From NCBI RefSeq assembly GCF_001011155.1, contig NZ_CP011479.1:2622501-2686500 (forward strand): a stretch of 64,000 nucleotides of DNA, in the 5' to 3' direction. The first letter of the stretch is position 1. Each line of letters opens with the position of its first letter. Origin of the DNA: Hoeflea sp. IMCC20628. GTDB taxonomy: Bacteria > Pseudomonadota > Alphaproteobacteria > Rhizobiales > Rhizobiaceae. Positions 77 through 64,000 of the stretch are shown here, one piece after another. The translations under genes and the position numbers were made by a program. Under the pieces are notes generated by a model. That model made no database searches, had not been told where the DNA came from, and was given only the letters and a program-made list of their open reading frames with translations.

Positions 77-2044
77 TCAGGCGGCGAATTTCAGAAGCTT
101 GATCGCCTCGAAATTCTGCACCCCGCCGCCCACGCGCTTGGTGGTGTAAAACAGCACATAGGGCTTGGCCGAATAGGGATCGCGCAGGATGCGAACCCCG
201 GTGCGGTCAACCACCAGATAGCCGCGACGGAAATCACCAAAGGCGATCGACGCCGAGTCCGCGGCGATGTCGGGCATGTCCTCGGCCTCGACCACCGGAA
301 AGCCCATCAGGGCTGCCTGCTGGCCCGCGCCCGCCGGCGGCGTCCAGAGATAGTTGCCGTCGGCATCCTTGAACTTGCGGATCTGGGCCTGGGTCTTGCG
401 GTTCATCACGAAACGGCCGTTCTGGCGGTGCCCGGCCTTGAGCGCATAGATCAGCTCCACCAGCCGGTCGGAGGGATCAGCGCCAAAAGCGCCCGATGAT
501 CCGGTGGAGATATGGCCGAGATTGCCCCAGCTCCAGCTGTCATCGTCGACGCTCGGGTAATCGAGAAAGCCGCGCGGCTTGTTGGCGCCATCGCCATTGA
601 CGAAGGCCGCCCCCTCCTGCTCGGCAAACGCGGCTTCGACTTCGCTGGCGATCCAGCCCTCGATGTCGACAGCACTGTCCTCGATCAGCGAGGCGGTGGC
701 AGCCGGCATGGCGTAGAGCTCCATGGTCGGAAACTGCAATTCCGCCAGTTGCGGTGCCGCCGTCTGCGGCCGTGCATCGGTCTCGCCAACCCAGCCGGTG
801 GCCATACCGTCAAGCGCAAAGGGCTTTTTCAGCACAGCACCCGAGACCTGCCGCACCGTGGCCATCGAGCGGATCGGCGACAGCTCGGAGAGACGCCGGC
901 CGATCTCGCTGTCGAGCTCGTCGGGCACCAGATAGCCGCCATCTGCATCACTGCCCGCCGACATGGCTTTGAGTTCAGATTGCCGCAACCCCGCCTCATC
1001 GCCGCGGCGCACATAGGCATCAAAAGCCTGCCGCACTGGCCCCGGCGCAGCGCTGCCGCCGCGTCCGAGATCAGGACGGGCACGCTTGACCAGCAACGCG
1101 TCGAGCGTCCGCTTCTGCTCGTCCAGCGCCGTGTCGATGCGCGCCATCTTTTCCTCGGTGATCACATCACCGCCGCCGCGCCGCTCGATCTCGGCCAACC
1201 GCTCGTCATTGGATTGCTTGTAGTGCTCAAACGCGGACATGAAGTCCTCGAAAGCGGCAGAGACGTCGGCATCGACGCTTTTGGTTTCGGGCGCTCGCCC
1301 GGTTTTGATCAGGGTGTTCATCGGTCGTCCTTTCAACAGATTGGGTTCGGTGGGCCGGGAAGTGCGAGACAACGCGCTTGTCAATGTGCGCATCTGGCGT
1401 TCCAGGCGTTTGAGATCCTCCGGCGCAGCGTCCTGCCTGTCCGAAAGCGCGCCAAAGCCACGGGCAATCAGCCCGCGCGCCTGGCGTCTGCTCAGCCCCG
1501 CATCCCGCGTGAGCCGGCGTTCGAGTTCACGCCGCGTCGGCGCCGGTGTTGCCTGCCCGAACCCTTTGACCGCGGTCACCCGCGCGCCCGGCTGCATCGG
1601 GAAGGTCACCACCGAAATCTCCCAGAGATCGGCGCTCAAAATCCGCCGCACCCCGACCTTGGCTTCATTGCGAGCGCGCAAGGTCTGAAACCCGATCGAC
1701 AGCCCGTCGAGCGCGCCGGATTTCATCAGCTCATGGACTTCCCGGGCACGAGCCACGCCAAGCGCCAGCTTGCCCTCGACATGCAGCCCGCGACTGTCTT
1801 CGCGGATCGACAGCCAGCGGCCGATCGGCTGGTCCGGGTCGTGCTGGTAGAGCATGCGCACATCGCTGGCGCCGCGCCGCTTCAGCGACGCTGCAAAAGC
1901 GCCCGGCTCGATCACGTCACGGCCCAGATCAACCGCGCCAAACAGGCTGGCATAGCCCGAGAAACTGCCGTCGCCGCTGACGTCTTCCAGTGCCAGATCG
2001 ACACGTTTGTGCTGCCGTCCGGATGCGCTCCAGTCGCTTGTCAT
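77..2044 (-). CDS. prohead protease - HK97 major capsid in-frame fusion
   Basis: This gene encodes the prohead maturation protease and the HK97-fold major capsid protein in one open frame of 655 residues. Residues 1-~200 match the U35/HK97 prohead protease family; the likely catalytic pair is His68 (YQHDPDQ) and Ser116 (GLSIGF). Residue 242 is an ATG preceded by a strong AAAGGA site, after which 414 residues read as a capsid protein: a charged coiled-coil scaffold-like N-terminus, then the capsid fold to the stop. In GTA and HK97 clusters these are normally two genes. Here either a polyprotein is made, or the capsid is also started internally. The start at 2044 is chosen because AAGGAC lies about 11 bases upstream; the longer frame to 2131 would overlap the preceding gene. 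It belongs to the minus-strand head operon. Confidence 0.85.
   Translation of the reverse strand: MTSDWSASGRQHKRVDLALEDVSGDGSFSGYASLFGAVDLGRDVIEPGAFAASLKRRGASDVRMLYQHDPDQPIGRWLSIREDSRGLHVEGKLALGVARAREVHELMKSGALDGLSIGFQTLRARNEAKVGVRRILSADLWEISVVTFPMQPGARVTAVKGFGQATPAPTRRELERRLTRDAGLSRRQARGLIARGFGALSDRQDAAPEDLKRLERQMRTLTSALSRTSRPTEPNLLKGRPMNTLIKTGRAPETKSVDADVSAAFEDFMSAFEHYKQSNDERLAEIERRGGGDVITEEKMARIDTALDEQKRTLDALLVKRARPDLGRGGSAAPGPVRQAFDAYVRRGDEAGLRQSELKAMSAGSDADGGYLVPDELDSEIGRRLSELSPIRSMATVRQVSGAVLKKPFALDGMATGWVGETDARPQTAAPQLAELQFPTMELYAMPAATASLIEDSAVDIEGWIASEVEAAFAEQEGAAFVNGDGANKPRGFLDYPSVDDDSWSWGNLGHISTGSSGAFGADPSDRLVELIYALKAGHRQNGRFVMNRKTQAQIRKFKDADGNYLWTPPAGAGQQAALMGFPVVEAEDMPDIAADSASIAFGDFRRGYLVVDRTGVRILRDPYSAKPYVLFYTTKRVGGGVQNFEAIKLLKFAA
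1328..1333 (-). promoter_or_regulatory. internal ribosome binding site for the capsid
   Basis: On the minus strand AAAGGA lies 6 bases before the ATG at 1321-1319, inside the continuous protease-capsid frame. Its strength and position at the domain boundary suggest that free capsid subunits are made by internal initiation, which would supply the large excess of capsid over protease a head needs. This is inference from spacing only. Confidence 0.6.
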
Positions 2045-2096
2045 GGTTTTGTCCTTGATGTTGTCGAAGTGTTTTCTGTCGCGCCGCGTGCAGCGT

Positions 2097-2417
2097 TTAT
2101 GCTCTGGGGCCGCGCCCGGTTCGGTCGGCAATTCGCGCCAATGCGCCGAGCACCCACCAGGCGGTCATGCTGGCGGCGGCCGATCCGGTCAGCAGGGTTT
2201 CGGTCCTGGACAACAGCCCGCTCACCCCCATCCACTGCGCTAGCGCCACGCCTGCCGGAGCACCGAAAACCAGGCCGGAGACAATGCCGGCGATGGCCCG
2301 CGCCACAGCTTCGCGCGCGCCTTTGGGCATCATGTAGGCGAGCGAAACCAGCGCACCGGCGACAGCCCCGGCAATGCGGGCGGCCAGCATTGCCGGCTCC
2401 GGATCCATGCTTTGCAT
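2097..2417 (-). CDS. small membrane protein of the GTA/phage head cluster
   Basis: This 106-residue protein sits between portal and protease genes, the place of orfg3.5 in Rhodobacter-type GTA clusters. It has two hydrophobic stretches, around residues 8-26 and 38-58, and a further one near 75-92, and no recognisable enzymatic motif. The ATG at 2417 is chosen because GGAGGTG lies 5-6 bases upstream; a longer reading to 2498 would overlap the portal gene end and has no comparable site. Similar rhizobial proteins at this place are annotated only as a family of unknown function (I recall DUF6107, not verified). Its role in head assembly is unknown. Confidence 0.65.
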   Translation of the reverse strand: MQSMDPEPAMLAARIAGAVAGALVSLAYMMPKGAREAVARAIAGIVSGLVFGAPAGVALAQWMGVSGLLSRTETLLTGSAAASMTAWWVLGALARIADRTGRGPRA

Positions 2418-4179: not shown

Positions 4180-4312
4180 TCCGTCACCCCGGACTTGATC
4201 CGGGGTCCAGCGACCCGGCATCCGCCGGGTCAAAAGACTCTCTTCAGCCCAAGGACTTGGGCTTGCTGGATGCCGGATCCGGGGTCCGGCATGACAAAGG
4301 AGTGAAACACCG
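4180..4312. repeat. dispersed palindromic repeat, copy 1
   Basis: The stretch contains CCCCGGACTTGATCCGGGG, then CCAGCGACCCGGC...GCCGGGTC and, near 4268-4297, an inverted partner GGATCCGGGGTCCGGCATGAC. A related copy lies at 5893-5985. This is the pattern of the short repetitive palindromes scattered between genes in many Hyphomicrobiales genomes. It fills the gap between the membrane protein gene and the end of the terminase gene. Confidence 0.7.
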
Positions 4313-4328
4313 CCGCACGCCAACCCCC

Positions 4329-5825
4329 TCACAAATGCCTGATTTGCGGCGCGCCTCTGCGCCCCAGCATCAGCTCGGTCAGCGCCCAGACCAGCGCGTC
4401 GAGCCGGTCGGGCGAACGGCCTGACGACAGCCCGTCGGGGCCGAAATCACACATCTGGTCTTCGAGCCCGCCAAAATGGCCGGCATGGACCACCCGGCCC
4501 TGCTCGTAGAGTGCCGCCACCGGTTCGGCGCGCAGCCACTTGCCGCGCGTTGCCCGCACGGTGCGGACCGGCAGCGAAGCATCGACGGTGCGCAGCACGC
4601 TTGTCACCATGTCGCCGCCCTGGTTGATCTCGGCCACCACGCAATCGGCGTCAAAGCGGCGGTAGAGCCGGCTCACCGCATTGGCCCAGGCCGACGGGCT
4701 TGCGCCCTCCACCGAGCCATCAGCCAGCACCACTGCGCGGCCTTCCGCGTCCAAACCTGCGGCAACAATGCCGCAGCAGGAGTACCTGGCTTCGCTCACC
4801 GCCGGCGGATCGACCGCCACCACGATGCGGGCCAGAGGCCCGTGACTTCGCACCGTCAGCGCCTCGATCTGGTCGCGTCGCCACAGCCCGTCCTCGCGGT
4901 CGGCGATCAACTCGCCGTCAAGCTCCTGCCGCCCCAACCGTGTGCCGCCATAGCGCGCCCTTATGGCGTCAAGAAAGCCCGTCGCCAGATTGCCTGCGGT
5001 GTCTTCAGTCCGTATCCGCGTCACCCGCGTGGCCGCGTCTTTGACCAGCGCCAGCATCAACGGTGTTGCCCTTGGCGTCGTCGTCACCAGTTGCCGTGGC
5101 GAGGTCCCGAGCCGCAGGCCAAATTGCAGCATGTCCCAGGTCTCGCGTTGATCGCGCCATTTGCCCAATTCGTCGCACCAGGCCAGATCGAACTGCGGCC
5201 CTCGCAGGCTTTCGGGGTCTTCGGACGAAAACATCTGCGCCACAGCACCCGACGGCCACACCAGCCTGCGCCGCGTCGCCTCAAAACTCGGGCGCTCACC
5301 GCGCGCCACGCCCATGATCCCCGACACGCCGTCAATCATCACCTCGCGGGCATCGCCAAAGGTTTCCGCCACCAATGCGATGCGGCCATCCTTGCCCAAT
5401 CCGGCAATCTCGCCGGAAGCCAACCCGTGCACCCATTCGGCGCCGGCGCGGGTTTTGCCCGAGCCCCGTCCGCCCATCAGCAGCCAGGTCCGCCAAGCCC
5501 CTTCGGGCGGCATCTGATCGGGTCGCGCCAAAAAGTCCCAGGCGGTGGCATTCTCGATCAGCGCCTCATCGCCAAGCTGGCCCAGATGCGCCGCTATCAG
5601 TTCGGCGATGCCAAGCGGTGCCATCTGTGTTTGCAGCCCTTGGAATGCCCCATCCCTGTCGCCGCCTTCCTCACCGGGCTCAACCGCATCGGCTTTCCGT
5701 CCGGCTGGCCGGGCGTTCTGCGTCGGCCGGCAATCCAGCCGGGTGTAATAGGGCAGACCCCACTCCGGCTCGGGCCGCGCCCAGACCCCGGATTTGAGCG
5801 CTGCTGCCATCGACCGGATCGTCAT
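4329..5825 (-). CDS. terminase large subunit (TerL), GTA/phage type
   Basis: The motor that pumps DNA into the prohead and cuts it. Walker A is GGRGSGKT (residues 118-125), a Walker B-like FDLAWCDELGKW follows about 95 residues later, and the C-terminal half carries the RNase H-like nuclease with acidic residues in VVAVDPP and the SPDRLDALVWALTEL ending. The start at 5825 has AGGAGA about 8 bases upstream and gives 498 residues, roughly 70 longer than usual. The first ~67 residues are low-complexity and rich in Arg, Gly and Glu. An in-frame ATG at 5624 would give a 431-residue protein of normal length but with a weak ribosome site, so the true start is uncertain. The gene is followed by a dispersed repeat and the opposite-strand membrane gene. 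Confidence 0.9.
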   Translation of the reverse strand: MTIRSMAAALKSGVWARPEPEWGLPYYTRLDCRPTQNARPAGRKADAVEPGEEGGDRDGAFQGLQTQMAPLGIAELIAAHLGQLGDEALIENATAWDFLARPDQMPPEGAWRTWLLMGGRGSGKTRAGAEWVHGLASGEIAGLGKDGRIALVAETFGDAREVMIDGVSGIMGVARGERPSFEATRRRLVWPSGAVAQMFSSEDPESLRGPQFDLAWCDELGKWRDQRETWDMLQFGLRLGTSPRQLVTTTPRATPLMLALVKDAATRVTRIRTEDTAGNLATGFLDAIRARYGGTRLGRQELDGELIADREDGLWRRDQIEALTVRSHGPLARIVVAVDPPAVSEARYSCCGIVAAGLDAEGRAVVLADGSVEGASPSAWANAVSRLYRRFDADCVVAEINQGGDMVTSVLRTVDASLPVRTVRATRGKWLRAEPVAALYEQGRVVHAGHFGGLEDQMCDFGPDGLSSGRSPDRLDALVWALTELMLGRRGAPQIRHL

Positions 5826-5892
5826 GCGTCTTTCTCCTGTTTGCATTCAGCACTCGGCAAAATCCGATTTGGGGTGACGCCCCCCACCAACT

Positions 5893-5985
5893 CCGTCACC
5901 CGGACTTGATCCAGACAAGCGAAGCGACGTCGTAGCCCCCGGGGTCCAGCGACCCGGCGTCTGCCGGGTCAGAAGACTCTTTCAC
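5893..5985. repeat. dispersed palindromic repeat, copy 2
   Basis: Shares CCGTCACC(C)CGGACTTGATCC, GGGGTCCAGCGACCCGGC, and GCCGGGTCA(G/A)AAGACTCT with the copy at 4180-4312, in the same orientation, but has about 25 extra bases (around 5914-5939) in the middle of the first palindrome. It occupies the gap between the small-terminase-like gene and the large terminase gene. Confidence 0.65.
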
Positions 5986-60052: not shown

Positions 60053-60646
60053 TTATCGCAACATCGGCCACAGGCTCGCCACCAGCAGTACCGCCATGGT
60101 GATGTTGAACCATTTCAGCCGCACCGGATCGGACAGCCAGGTCCGCAGCACCGAGCCGAAGCCTGCCCAGGTAAAGACCGCCGGGAAATTTGTCAGCACG
60201 AATGCCAGACCGACCAGAAACACCGTGAGCGAATAGCGGTCGGGATTGGTGTAGATCGTCATCGCGGTGACAGCCATCACCCAGGCCTTGGGGTTGACCC
60301 ACTGGAACGCGGCGGCCTGAAGCAATGTCAGCGGCTGTTCGCCGACCTTGCCGTCCGGCATGGCCCGCGACATGCCGATCTTCCAGGCAATATAGACGAG
60401 ATAGGCAGCACCGGCGATTTTCAGCACCGTATAGAGAACCGGTACTGTTGCCAGCAGAGCGCCGAGACCGAAGCCGACTCCCAACAGCAGCGAAAAGAAC
60501 CCGGCGCCGATCCCGACCATATGCGGGAACGTCCGGCGGAAACCGAAATTCACCCCCGAGGCAAACAGCATCATGGTGTTCGGACCCGGCGTCACCGAAG
60601 TGACGAAGGCGAAGACGACCAGAGACAGAAATGTTTCCAGAGCCAT
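60053..60646 (-). CDS. LysE-family exporter
   Basis: A 197-residue six-helix translocator of the RhtB/LysE family. The signature is SVTPGPNTMMLFASGVNFG; FQWVNPKAWVMAVTAMTIY follows near the middle. Position upstream of the nitrile hydratase genes suggests export of an amide or amino acid, but this is inference. ATG 60646 is preferred over 60667. Confidence 0.85.
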   Translation of the reverse strand: MALETFLSLVVFAFVTSVTPGPNTMMLFASGVNFGFRRTFPHMVGIGAGFFSLLLGVGFGLGALLATVPVLYTVLKIAGAAYLVYIAWKIGMSRAMPDGKVGEQPLTLLQAAAFQWVNPKAWVMAVTAMTIYTNPDRYSLTVFLVGLAFVLTNFPAVFTWAGFGSVLRTWLSDPVRLKWFNITMAVLLVASLWPMLR

Positions 60647-60770
60647 GTGCGTTCCCGTCGGCTCCATGCCGGCCTATGTTTGTTTAACGAGCCTGCCGGG
60701 CGATGCCAACACATTGTCGTCATGCCCGCATTCCAGAATGTGATACAACCCCACACTACAGGAGACCCGC

Positions 60771-61616
60771 ATGAGCCATCCGCTTCCCTCAGCCACCTTC
60801 CCCGATGGGCAATCCGTGCCGGCACTGGGGCTGGGCACATGGCACATGGGCGAGGACCAAGCCAGCGCAAAAGCCGAGATCCGTGCGCTGCAAGCGGGGA
60901 TCGATTGCGGCATGACGCTGATCGACACGGCGGAAATGTATGCGGGTGGCGGTGCGGAAGAAATCACCGGCGAGGCGATCAAGGGTCGCCGCGACGGGTT
61001 GTTCATCGTCTCCAAGGTGATGCCGTCCAATGCCAGCCACAAAGGCACCCTCGCCGCCTGCGAGGCCAGCCTCAGGCGGCTCGGCACAGAGCGGATCGAT
61101 CTCTATCTGCTGCATTGGCCAGGTCGTCACCCGTTGCGCGACACCGTCGTAGCCTTTGAGGAATTGCGCAGCTCGGGCAAGATTGCCCGATGGGGCGTAT
61201 CCAACTTCGACACGTTGGCGATGCGGCAGCTCTCGGCGCTGCCCAAGGGCAAGGACTGCGCTGCCAATCAGGTGCTCTATAACTTGTCGACACGCGGCAT
61301 CGAGTTCGACCTGCTGCCATGGATGACTGACAACGCCATGCCGCTGATGGCCTATTCACCCCTCGATGAGGGCCGGTTGTTGCGAAATCCCGATCTGGGC
61401 AAGATGGCGGGCCAGATGGGTGTCAGCCCGGCACAGCTGGCGCTGGCCTTCCTGCTTGCCCGCGACAATGTCATTGCCATTCCGAAATCATCCAGTCCGG
61501 AGCGGGTAGCGGAAAACCGCGCCAGCGCCGATATCGAGCTCACCGACGATCAGATCGCCGAACTCGACCGGCTGTTTCCCGCGCCGCGCTCCCGTGAACC
61601 GCTGCAGATGATCTGA
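60771..61616 (+). CDS. aldo/keto reductase
   Basis: A 281-residue TIM-barrel NADPH-dependent reductase of the AKR superfamily. The catalytic tetrad can be placed: Asp and Tyr in [12 protein letters not shown], Lys in FIVSKVMP and His in DLYLLHWPG. The NADP motif is [13 protein letters not shown] near the C-terminus. AGGAGA lies 6 bases before the ATG. The stop at 61614-61616 lies one base before the left copy of the 43-bp repeat, so before the island inserted it ended directly against ilvN. Confidence 0.9.
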
Positions 61617-61617
61617 G

Positions 61618-61660
61618 ATCACATCCCCTGCGGGCCGCGGTTCATGGCGGCGATGCCGGT
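61618..61660. repeat. 43-bp direct repeat, left copy (attL-like)
   Basis: Identical over 43 bases to 63287-63329. The sequence is the 3' end of ilvN on the minus strand (ending in its stop codon), here without the rest of the gene. It directly follows the aldo/keto reductase stop. Confidence 0.95.
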
Positions 61661-61721
61661 TAAAGCTGCTGATTTTTCCACTTGGAACAAGCCGTCATCC
61701 CGACGATTTTGAATGCTCTTT

Positions 61722-62324
61722 TCAATCCTTAAGTAGCGCTTCAATTATCCTTTTTGCATCGTCGCTAAACCGGCGAATTACTTGATCAGGGTCAGCTATG
61801 AAATCCGTCATTTTGACACGCGAATTCGCAAGAATATCTCCGCGACCTTCCTGCTCAACTACCCAGCCTTCAACGTCTGCTGCGGCCCCAAGAGAAACCA
61901 TACTATCATTGTCCAAAAACCTATAAACGTGCAAACAAATCTCTTCGTCGACTAACATCAATATTAAACAATCACTCCTCCCTTCATTTTTCTTATTTTT
62001 GTCTCGATAATAATCTATCTCAATACATTTATGCTCCCAAACATCTGATGGGCTTGAATTGGAATAATCAAAAAAACCGTCCCCAAGCCGACTTGCGTTG
62101 TTTACTCCAAACGTAGCTTCCCATACGCGATAGAACATCTCTACAAAATCTGTCCTGACCTGAGCAGCAAAAAGCAGAGCTTGATTGTATTCCCGCGCCT
62201 CTGACCAATCACATTCAATCATGTCATCACCATCCAATTTCCCAACCAGATCATCGACAGCGCTTCGGACTCTTTTGTTATTAATATACTCTTTCATCGA
62301 GAGCGGTACTTCAAACTCAAGCAT
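61722..62324 (-). CDS. island protein of unknown function, partner of nuclease
   Basis: A 200-residue protein with ATG at 62324 and AGAGG 6 bases upstream, 17 bases after the nuclease stop. It begins MLEFEVPLSMKEYINNKR and has a charged centre (EHKCIEIDYYRDKNKK) and mixed alpha/beta character; the segments CLILMLVDEEICLHVYRF and AADVEGWVVEQE could be a beta sheet. I do not recognise the family. Its close linkage to the PD-(D/E)XK nuclease inside a repeat-bound island suggests they act together, as an effector/immunity or sensor/effector pair. AT-rich codon use differs from its neighbours. Confidence 0.7.
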   Translation of the reverse strand: MLEFEVPLSMKEYINNKRVRSAVDDLVGKLDGDDMIECDWSEAREYNQALLFAAQVRTDFVEMFYRVWEATFGVNNASRLGDGFFDYSNSSPSDVWEHKCIEIDYYRDKNKKNEGRSDCLILMLVDEEICLHVYRFLDNDSMVSLGAAADVEGWVVEQEGRGDILANSRVKMTDFIADPDQVIRRFSDDAKRIIEALLKD

Positions 62325-62341
62325 TCGATACCTCTTGGATT

Positions 62342-63130
62342 TTACAAATTTATTCTGCGCCAAAGCCAATTCAAGAAAATTTTCAAACTGGGATCATCCT
62401 CGGCAGGCCGTGTCCGCTCGAACCGTAGCCATAGGTCACGCCAAGAGACAAACCGCCAATTTGTCCATTGACGCCCTTTTAACCCATGCATGGCGCTATC
62501 ATCGAGACCGAGAACCACCAATTTGGTCGAAGCATTGTCAATATCCCGGTCTTTTTGAACGATTTTCGTATAATTCGCCAACTGTCCACGTGTAATTATG
62601 TGACCAAATTTGGCCTCAATTACTAGGGCCGAATACATTTTTTCTTTTCCGGTCTTTTGATATTTGAGCATCAGATCGATGCGGTTCACCTCTGCTTCCA
62701 CAACCGCGCTCTTCGCTTCTTGAAGTGTCGGCACGTCCGAAGACTTCAATGCTTTGTAAAAGGCAATCAGTCTTTCCGCCCGGACATCATCTGGTCCTCT
62801 ATTGAGAAGGTGAGCGATGGTTCTTGTTGCTTGCGGTTCAGTTAGTTCAAAACCCCAATCCAAGCATGGTGCATCAAAAGAGTGATGAGCCTTGGTTAAT
62901 CCATAAATTGCATTCAAGCCTTTACAATCAACCGGTGTTTGCTTCTGGGCCAGCGCTGAGAGTTGCGCCATCTTATCAAGCAGGAAATTAGTACGCCTCT
63001 GGTCGTACCTTCTCAGCACAGCCCCATCAAATGCACCACGATTTGCCCGCGCTTGCATGGCCAAATACCGATAGGGGGTCGACGTTAATTCGGAGTTTTC
63101 TGCTCTTATAATTAAATACTTGCCCGCCAA
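62342..63130 (-). CDS. PD-(D/E)XK nuclease-family protein
   Basis: A 262-residue protein. The nuclease core is well visible: Asp152 in VNRIDLMLKY, Glu172 and Lys174 in VIEAKFG, and the QxxxY helix Gln183-Tyr187 (RGQLANY) of RecB-like nucleases. Glu95 in the helix FELTEPQATRTIAHLL may complete the site. The N-terminal ~90 residues are a helical, charged domain. Start is TTG at 63130 with no strong ribosome site; ATG 63061 is an alternative. It is the first gene of the two-gene island. It is likely a DNase in defence or a decayed element nuclease. Confidence 0.8.
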   Translation of the reverse strand: MAGKYLIIRAENSELTSTPYRYLAMQARANRGAFDGAVLRRYDQRRTNFLLDKMAQLSALAQKQTPVDCKGLNAIYGLTKAHHSFDAPCLDWGFELTEPQATRTIAHLLNRGPDDVRAERLIAFYKALKSSDVPTLQEAKSAVVEAEVNRIDLMLKYQKTGKEKMYSALVIEAKFGHIITRGQLANYTKIVQKDRDIDNASTKLVVLGLDDSAMHGLKGRQWTNWRFVSWRDLWLRFERTRPAEDDPSLKIFLNWLWRRINL

Positions 63131-63145
63131 AAACTACAAACACAA

Positions 63146-63174
63146 AAATATGCGCCGCGCCCCAAAGCATATTT
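63146..63174. terminator. 8-bp stem between ilvN and the island genes
   Basis: AAATATGC (63146-63153) pairs perfectly with GCATATTT (63167-63174), followed by T on the minus strand. It could end ilvN readthrough before the island genes or act as an RNA signal for them. A second small stem GACAC/GTGTC lies at 63180-63196. Confidence 0.5.
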
Positions 63175-63286
63175 ACCCGGACACCTCAAAAGTGTCAGCA
63201 AGACATCCATAGGCCTCTTTCCATCCTCAGCCACCCGAAGCAACGATACCTGTCATCATCGCCTCAGATAGTGACAGAAAATTTGA

Positions 63287-63329
63287 ATCACATCCCCTGC
63301 GGGCCGCGGTTCATGGCGGCGATGCCGGT
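63287..63329. repeat. 43-bp direct repeat, right copy (attR-like)
   Basis: Identical to 61618-61660. It contains the ilvN stop and the codons for AAMNRGPQGM, so ilvN stays complete. Confidence 0.95.
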
Positions 63330-63860
63330 GCGGCAAATTTCGACCAGACCGAGCGGTTTCATGATCGAGATGAACTGTTCGATCTTGGACACCCGGCCGG
63401 TGATTTCGAAAATGAAATGCTCCGTATTGGCGTCGATCACCTGGGCGCGGAAGGCCTCGGCGAGGCGCAACGCCTCGACCCGGTTCTCGCCGGTGCCGGT
63501 CACCTTGACCAGCGCAAGTTCCCGCTCCAGCGGCTTGTCATGACCAAGCTCGACAGACCGCACCGTCAAGTCAACCACGCGGTGGACCGGAATGATGCGT
63601 GATAGATGCGCCTTGACCTGTTCAAGCACATTCGGGGTTGCGGTGGTGACGATGGTGATGCGCGAGAGATGCGCCTCATGCTCTGTTTCCGAGACCGTCA
63701 GACTTTCGATGTTGTAGCCACGGCCGGAAAACAGGCCGATGACGCGGGCAAGAACGCCCGGCTCGTTGTCGACCAGAACCGATAGGGTGTGGGTTTCCGG
63801 AAGAGCGGTTTCGGCGGTCATGAAATAGGCCGAACCGGTGGGTTGATACTGAGCGTTCAT
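63288..63860 (-). CDS. ilvN: acetolactate synthase small (regulatory) subunit
   Basis: A 190-residue regulatory subunit (also called IlvH) of the first step of branched-chain amino acid synthesis; it activates the large subunit and mediates valine inhibition. The N-terminal ACT domain reads LSVLVDNEPGVLARVIGLFSGRGYNIESLTVS; the second domain follows with LVKVTGTGENRVEALRLAE and FEITGRVSKIEQFISIMKPLG. GAGGAAC lies 8 bases before the ATG. Its 3' end is the integration site of the island. The large-subunit gene lies 27 bases upstream. Confidence 0.93.
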   Translation of the reverse strand: MNAQYQPTGSAYFMTAETALPETHTLSVLVDNEPGVLARVIGLFSGRGYNIESLTVSETEHEAHLSRITIVTTATPNVLEQVKAHLSRIIPVHRVVDLTVRSVELGHDKPLERELALVKVTGTGENRVEALRLAEAFRAQVIDANTEHFIFEITGRVSKIEQFISIMKPLGLVEICRTGIAAMNRGPQGM

Positions 63861-63887
63861 GTGATCAGTTCCTCTAACAGGCGCGGC

Positions 63888-64000
63888 TCAAACGAGCGCG
63901 CGGCCTTTGGCATCAATGGCGTTGGCGACAGCTTCGTCGGTGGCTTCGTCAGGCAGCAGCATATCGTTATGCGCCTTGCCTGACGGGATCATCGGGAAGC
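63888..64000 (-). CDS. ilvB: acetolactate synthase large subunit, C-terminal part
   Basis: The window holds only the last 36 codons of this gene on the minus strand, ending FPMIPSGKAHNDMLLPDEAT ... GRALV and a TGA at 63890-63888. The FPMIPSG(K)AHNDM sequence is the conserved C-terminus of the thiamine-diphosphate enzyme acetohydroxyacid synthase. It continues beyond the right edge and is followed by ilvN after 27 bases, forming the usual ilvBN pair. Confidence 0.85.
   Translation of the reverse strand, partial: FPMIPSGKAHNDMLLPDEATDEAVANAIDAKGRALV

Follow-up and report, generated by a model that had tools for sequence, protein, structure and literature searches.

A putative nuclease and its partner gene in a small A+T-rich island, very probably inserted at the 3' end of ilvN

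A repeated gene end, together with the regeneration of the target gene, is the mark of the integrase islands that lie in tRNA and tmRNA genes (PMC4383910). CIMEs (cis-mobilizable elements) are elements whose integration and transfer genes have been lost and in which attL and attR are kept (PMC5704250). Homology-facilitated illegitimate recombination is known from experiments with naturally competent species and from conjugation in E. coli (PMC3240628). The island described here lies downstream of ilvN, within a window of 64,000 nucleotides (the whole stretch of DNA that was analysed). Like the tyrosine-integrase islands recognised by the Islander principle (PMC4383910), it shows a regenerated target, a displaced fragment at the other end and an A+T-rich cargo of foreign type. 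It differs from them in that the target is a protein gene and not a tRNA gene, the size is 1.6 kb, no integrase lies in the island and none was found near ilvN in 140 genomes, and other duplicated ilvN ends differ in length. With a CIME it shares a cargo placed between two att-like repeats and the lack of integration genes (PMC5704250), whereas no related ICE or IME was found at the ilvN site and the repeats are candidate att repeats only. The island is filed neither as an integrase island nor as a CIME: it carries no integrase, the orphan ends did not reveal a fixed core, and its repeats are att-like only. Short foreign DNA with a homology anchor at one end and an illegitimate join at the other would leave the anatomy of this island (PMC3240628), but neither a donor nor a recombined tract was found for it in the congeners compared.

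The direct repeat consists of two copies, 61618-61660 and 63287-63329, which are identical at 43 of 43 positions and have a start-to-start spacing of 1669. This confirms what an earlier sequence-only reading had described, namely a perfect repeat with the ilvN 3' end on the right and an orphan fragment of it on the left. The ilvN gene (63288..63860, minus strand) encodes the small subunit of acetolactate synthase and is intact (Pfam match; NCBIfam NF008864, 1.1e-65). The right copy is its working 3' end (stop codon, 13 codons and 1 bp) and begins one base past the stop codon, which is TCA on the plus strand (63288-63290). The left copy is separated by a 1-base spacer from the stop of the convergent neighbour, which encodes an aldo/keto reductase (AKR; 60771..61616, plus strand; PF00248, 2.6e-56). 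The island itself (61661..63286) measures 1,626 bp, is absent from the congeners examined and is mostly made up of two minus-strand ORFs, on the same strand as ilvN. It had also been described as AT-rich, and its G+C content is indeed 44.8%, compared with 59.9% in the window, 62.9% in AKR and 60.0% in ilvN.

When the window was scanned for direct repeats (seed 15, at least 30 nt, copies up to 10 kb apart), the 43-bp repeat was one of only two families found, and a rough estimate puts the chance of a perfect 43-mer, counted over every pair of positions in the window, at 5e-17. If gaps are penalised only lightly, the left copy can be aligned to ilvN beyond 43 bp, across a 4-bp gap, and the inner edge of the repeat is sharp only in the ungapped alignment. 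A tRNA- or RNA-linked element was rejected, since the window contains no tRNA and 60500-64000 gave no Rfam hit that reaches the gathering score. Promoter and terminator scanning gave a yield no higher than in shuffled sequences.

The junction was compared between the source genome (G000, 5.12 Mb) and 17 congeners. AKR lies beside ilvN in 15 of them; G017 has ilvN with no AKR match nearby, and G007 gave no match. The distance between both genes is 10-39 bp in six congeners (G001, G003, G006, G010, G013 and G015), about 85-140 bp in three (G002, G005 and G008) and 502-599 bp in five (G004, G011, G012, G014 and G016), all of which have in common a gene for a secreted-type protein of ~87 aa. It reaches 1,487 bp in G009, where a GGDEF-type gene lies inside (these last two genes were named by reading). 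The island has no room in the gap of 14 of the 15 congeners, the fifteenth, G009, having another gene. Related to this, the island sequence gave no blastn match (E<=0.01) in the 19 other fetched loci, being present only in G000 among 20; G017 was checked for it by blastn only. The junction is variable within the genus, and the island is particular to the G000 lineage among those sampled. Over the 43 bp the congeners' ilvN 3' ends differ by 0-16% from the repeat, and there are 0 differences between the two copies of G000. In G008 and G014 the alignment to congeners stops just upstream of ilvN, which suggests that these genomes have a further insert between ilvN and its neighbour on that side.

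It is very probable that a two-gene module of foreign composition was inserted between the convergent genes AKR and ilvN. No simpler reading is at hand, because the module is present in the G000 lineage and not in the sampled congeners, ilvN is intact and an orphan 43-bp copy lies beside AKR. The sequence-only reading had claimed an insertion and had proposed the alignment of relatives at this junction as a check; near-empty junctions were found, with 10-39 bp in 6 of the 15 congeners and no island in any that keep AKR, so the claim is well supported.

The gene next to ilvN (62342..63130, minus strand) encodes a predicted PD-(D/E)XK nuclease of 262 aa, counted from the TTG at 63130 (start codon uncertain). 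It matches PF14281 (PDDEXK_4) at 9.7e-6 and 26.1 bits, the curated cut-off being 22.3. This family was matched by all six nucleases scanned at E<=1 (best value 7.8e-9), and a model for PDC-S26, a candidate family of PADLOC, by five of the six at E<=0.1 (best 2.2e-12), the match of the window protein (5.2e-5) being weak. In PD-(D/E)XK enzymes the catalytic residues follow the pattern D...(D/E)xK. D152, E172, K174 and Q183 are invariant across six aligned homologues (D152 and E172-A-K174 in 6/6), and the same catalytic motif was recognised by eye in the nucleases of both plasmids mentioned below. The window nuclease is classed as PDDEXK_4 and is a putative DNA-cutting enzyme. No relative of it was found by sequence in the PDB. 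Compared with the PDDEXK_4 and PDC-S26 models, the window protein has 262 aa and the matched models 358-413, and here the nuclease has behind it a partner gene for which none of the libraries used has a name.

This partner (61722..62324, minus strand) encodes 200 aa from the ATG at 62324, a start picked by alignment, the mechanical ORF beginning at the TTG at 62369. It has no family match worth the name: none was found in NCBIfam or PADLOC (in the latter none at E<=1 for 6/6 members), nor in the Protein Data Bank when it was searched together with its homologues. Four Pfam matches, of a single member each (E 0.011-0.11), and one PHROG match (E 0.026) were taken as noise. The gene product is predicted to be a conserved protein of ~200 aa, nameless in all libraries used. 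Neither of the two ORFs is an integrase, which supports, for the inside of the island, the earlier statement that none is present.

An order-level search of 297 genomes found the partner in G000, G498 and G048 only, and in the last two the nuclease adjoins it; a weak nuclease-only match was obtained in G596. Further pairs occur in Robiginitomaculum NORP30, in G1250 and in G1144 (more diverged, same phylum), as well as in two plasmids, the mobilizable pFW12EY of Methylomonas koyamae and the conjugative pTomMM15c of Sphingobium, in which the partner profile scores 93.5 and 53.5 bits, respectively, against the gene that comes after the nuclease. A third plasmid match, in Croceicoccus, is outside the eight loci read. 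Both genes are adjacent, in the order nuclease then partner, in 8/8 of these loci, and it is highly likely that they form a conserved two-gene functional unit. Since the reading frames are open and the lengths similar, the module is probably functional. The pair is rare: at class level the nuclease profile hit a single genome of 385, G000 itself, and at phylum level the partner profile hit 3 of 398. The single nuclease sequence gave no match against genome contigs, and the alignment-based search gave one, Robiginitomaculum NORP30. No relatives of the pair were detected in viral contigs, and none of the nuclease in phage records.

The sites of the pair in other genomes differ from one another. 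In G498 it forms a 1,538-bp insert at a convergent gene junction where the congener G462 has 7 bp, and no repeat of at least 20 nt (seed 12) was found beside it. In G048 it follows a glyQ-like gene (named by reading), and nothing in the flanks points to the copying of a gene end; a 46-nt repeat (6835, 10376) considered there as an insertion repeat was discarded as a member of a dispersed family. In G1250 the pair stands beside apparent IS transposases, also named by reading. Six tests of flank similarity at G498, G048 and NORP30 gave one p value of 0.017 (G498, uncorrected) and others of 0.14-0.64. Across these other sites no conserved att site was seen to go with the module. In NORP30 (L080, 4030-5746) two more small hypothetical genes lie beside the pair, one of them with a possible nuclease-like motif by eye.

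Second copies of the ilvN end were looked for in 140 genomes of the family, G000 included, covering ilvN (confirmed in 80/80 and 60/60) and the sequence downstream of it, about 12 kb at most and shorter in part of the loci; locus L214, with 118 bp downstream, was dropped, leaving 139 loci. By a gapped measure, with a stand-out threshold (z >= 6) chosen after the list was seen, a second ilvN 3' end is present in 4/139 (G000, G413, G307 and G014), around three different cargoes. In G413 and G307, which belong to one other genus, the orphan lies ~1.4 kb downstream, at the 3' end of a quinone-oxidoreductase-like gene named by reading (10530-10583 in L148, from G413; 10505-10548 in L150, from G307), and an extra gene separates it from AKR. 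Over its first 50 bp the G413 orphan is closer to the ilvN end of G004, from the genus of the window, than to its own (45 vs 40 of 50). In G014 (L044) a decayed ilvN end is found 15-73 bp past the AKR stop (42/59 columns, 0/500 shuffles), 0.5 kb downstream of ilvN and beyond the gene for the small secreted-type protein. Four congeners with the same small gene (G004, G011, G012 and G016) show no clear decayed ilvN copy (p 0.06-0.37), and the idea that this cassette is a second insertion with its own repeat was dropped, the copy being clear in G014 only of the five. In every orphan case the cargo is placed between ilvN and the orphan, and its coding direction is the same as that of ilvN.

The ungapped extents of the orphans are about 43 bp (G000), 50-60 bp (G014) and 70 bp (G413), which speaks against a single att core; the gapped alignment of G000 is longer, however, which makes orphan lengths harder to compare, and two of the copies are decayed. 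By the ungapped measure a repeated ilvN end occurs in 3/80 loci of the first set and 0/59 of the second, that is, 3/139. The control set was drawn from the window and 80 loci and comprised 559 mechanical ORFs, each 200 aa or longer; with a criterion of at least 32/50 within 2.5 kb only 1/559 of these genes has a repeated 3' end, and that one is a close tandem, in a set that leaves out ORFs of <200 aa (ilvN itself is one) and those near locus ends. The comparison of 3/139 with 1/559 gives a one-sided p of 0.026 including G000, the genome which prompted the test; without it (2/138 vs 1/559) p is 0.10 and the excess is not significant. The first 80 loci alone give a two-sided p of 0.007. A motif of the ilvN end matched 200 of 394 family genomes, with two copies in G000 only (by eye), a weak negative because 194 of the 394 were uninformative and three decayed copies were missed.

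No tyrosine recombinase was found by profile downstream of ilvN (up to about 12 kb) in the 140 family genomes. The profile, built from 14 recombinase sequences that represent 13 distinct frames of G000, with one frame included in duplicate, recovers its own members, has no independent positive control and covers the tyrosine type only. G000 itself has 15 PF00589 matches in 14 reading frames, two of them in one 382-aa frame. Three frames of the tyrosine-recombinase type, at G000:C1:2841081, 3736143 and 3749429, are unusually long (585-605 aa). A phage-borne attP for ilvN was also looked for and discarded: two degenerate ilvN-end motifs had no exact match in IMG/VR, and the 134-bp ilvN end had no match in 50,697 phage records. 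In the literature searched no report was found that ties an integrase to ilvN as target, and the main text of a paper on Sinorhizobium integration sites (PMC11476347) is free of 'ilv' and 'acetolactate'. The search for other islands bounded by the ilvN end, proposed together with the original claim, turned out positive but rare, with three further genomes of 138, other cargo and no tyrosine recombinase found. The claim itself, that the island is a non-autonomous mobile cargo element, holds as regards the repeat anatomy and the absence of an integrase inside; the use of the ilvN 3' end as a site is not established, given that no tyrosine recombinase was found downstream of ilvN in 140 genomes, the differing orphan lengths and the presence of the pair elsewhere with no clear repeat.

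Several explanations of this locus have to be weighed. It is scarcely credible that the two genes had always been at the junction, with the repeat as an old duplication: the junction is without island in all 15 congeners that keep AKR, the repeat copies are identical and the partner gene is present in only 3/297 order-level genomes, G000 among them. Ancestral duplication was rejected on account of the identical copies and of those congener junctions. As to the route of entry, site-specific integration at the ilvN 3' end is quite possible. This end would act as attB, a tyrosine recombinase would be supplied in trans or would since have been deleted, and the island would be a CIME-like remnant or passenger between attL and attR. 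The anatomy is canonical for such an event (a perfect 43-bp repeat, with the regenerated gene at one end and its displaced fragment at the other), the 15 PF00589 matches make supply in trans possible, and orphan ilvN ends recur with different cargo in 4/139 loci by the gapped measure (3/139 ungapped, with the excess over the control given above). Nevertheless, no tyrosine recombinase was found downstream of ilvN in 140 genomes, neither the ilvN-end motifs in IMG/VR nor the phage records gave a match, orphan lengths vary, there is no clear repeat at the pair sites of G498, G048 and NORP30, and the excess loses significance once G000 is removed. It is rather improbable that the foreign DNA was captured at a staggered break with fill-in, by end joining or an unknown transposition, the 43-bp target duplication falling here by chance. 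A target duplication across a short gap would leave both neighbours intact with no need for a recombinase, and the G498 insertion lies at another convergent junction. Target duplications are usually shorter than 43 bp, so this one would be long; moreover, the repeat starts one base past the ilvN end, and the same accident would be needed again for the duplicated ilvN ends of two other lineages.

Integrase-free recombination anchored in ilvN is tentatively put forward as the leading explanation and is slightly preferred over the recombinase route, because it accounts for the varied orphan lengths and for the absence of any recombinase. The foreign DNA would arrive as a short fragment in which the module is next to an ilvN 3' end. 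On one side homologous recombination would take place in ilvN, and the other end would be joined illegitimately inside the resident ilvN end; as a variant, the fragment might circularise and enter by a single crossover. The 43 bp would then not represent an integrase core site but a leftover of the resident ilvN end, and the module would be a passenger without a recombinase of its own. Since AKR and ilvN nearly touch, a remnant of ilvN is to be expected after a join that spares AKR, and the ungapped orphans of about 43, 50-60 and 70 bp around different cargoes mean that no fixed core is seen. Genes like those of gene transfer agents are present in the window (80-2131 and 4332-5846), among them a frame that combines prohead protease with HK97 capsid domains and a terminase gene, and a GTA_TIM protein is encoded at G000:C1:2615360-2616232, about 6.3 kb left of the window start; they are a plausible source of short linear DNA, although this proves nothing. 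Several points count against the homology route. None of the 15 congeners that keep AKR at ilvN turned out to carry the pair there and so to qualify as a donor, and no switch of relatedness along ilvN, indicative of a recombined tract, was seen by eye in the comparison with congeners. A repeated gene end with the gene regenerated is, in tRNA and tmRNA genes, the described mark of integrase islands (PMC4383910). Besides, 43 bp is short for a RecA-type crossover, and the duplicated ilvN ends of three lineages could reflect a preferred site instead.

Regarding function, the nuclease would cut DNA and the partner may restrain or direct it. On the basis of the nuclease family, the patchy distribution and the carriage by plasmids, a nuclease-based defence-type module is favoured with modest confidence, an anti-phage role would be plausible, and the pair looks like a travelling defence unit. 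It fits no known anti-phage system in PADLOC 2.0.0, where the nuclease has the weak PDC-S26 match and the partner none, and the literature searched gave nothing on PDC-S26, nor anything on this PDDEXK two-gene pair among the papers listed. It is doubtful, though conceivable, that the pair is an undescribed anti-phage system of two genes and ~1.5 kb, lacking its own recombinase and dropped onto the ends of core genes by a recombination that copies the 3' end of the host gene. If so, it would be a very small defence system, and its presence on one conjugative and one mobilizable plasmid and at core-gene ends would show one route to chromosomes. Small cargo insertions free of integrase are rarely datable; here the entry route is testable thanks to relatives in which the site is almost empty, to the exactness of the repeat and to the other cargoes with decayed ilvN repeats in related genomes. 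The most useful product of this analysis is the two-gene module, named as a system by no library used.

The second repeat family of the window is a 42-nt hairpin-like direct repeat (4200-4241 and 5939-5980, 93% identical) located on both sides of the terminase gene. A 28-nt pattern taken from it did not recur in the window even with 3 mismatches allowed, and none of 221 loci contains it exactly. It is probably a dispersed palindromic repeat.
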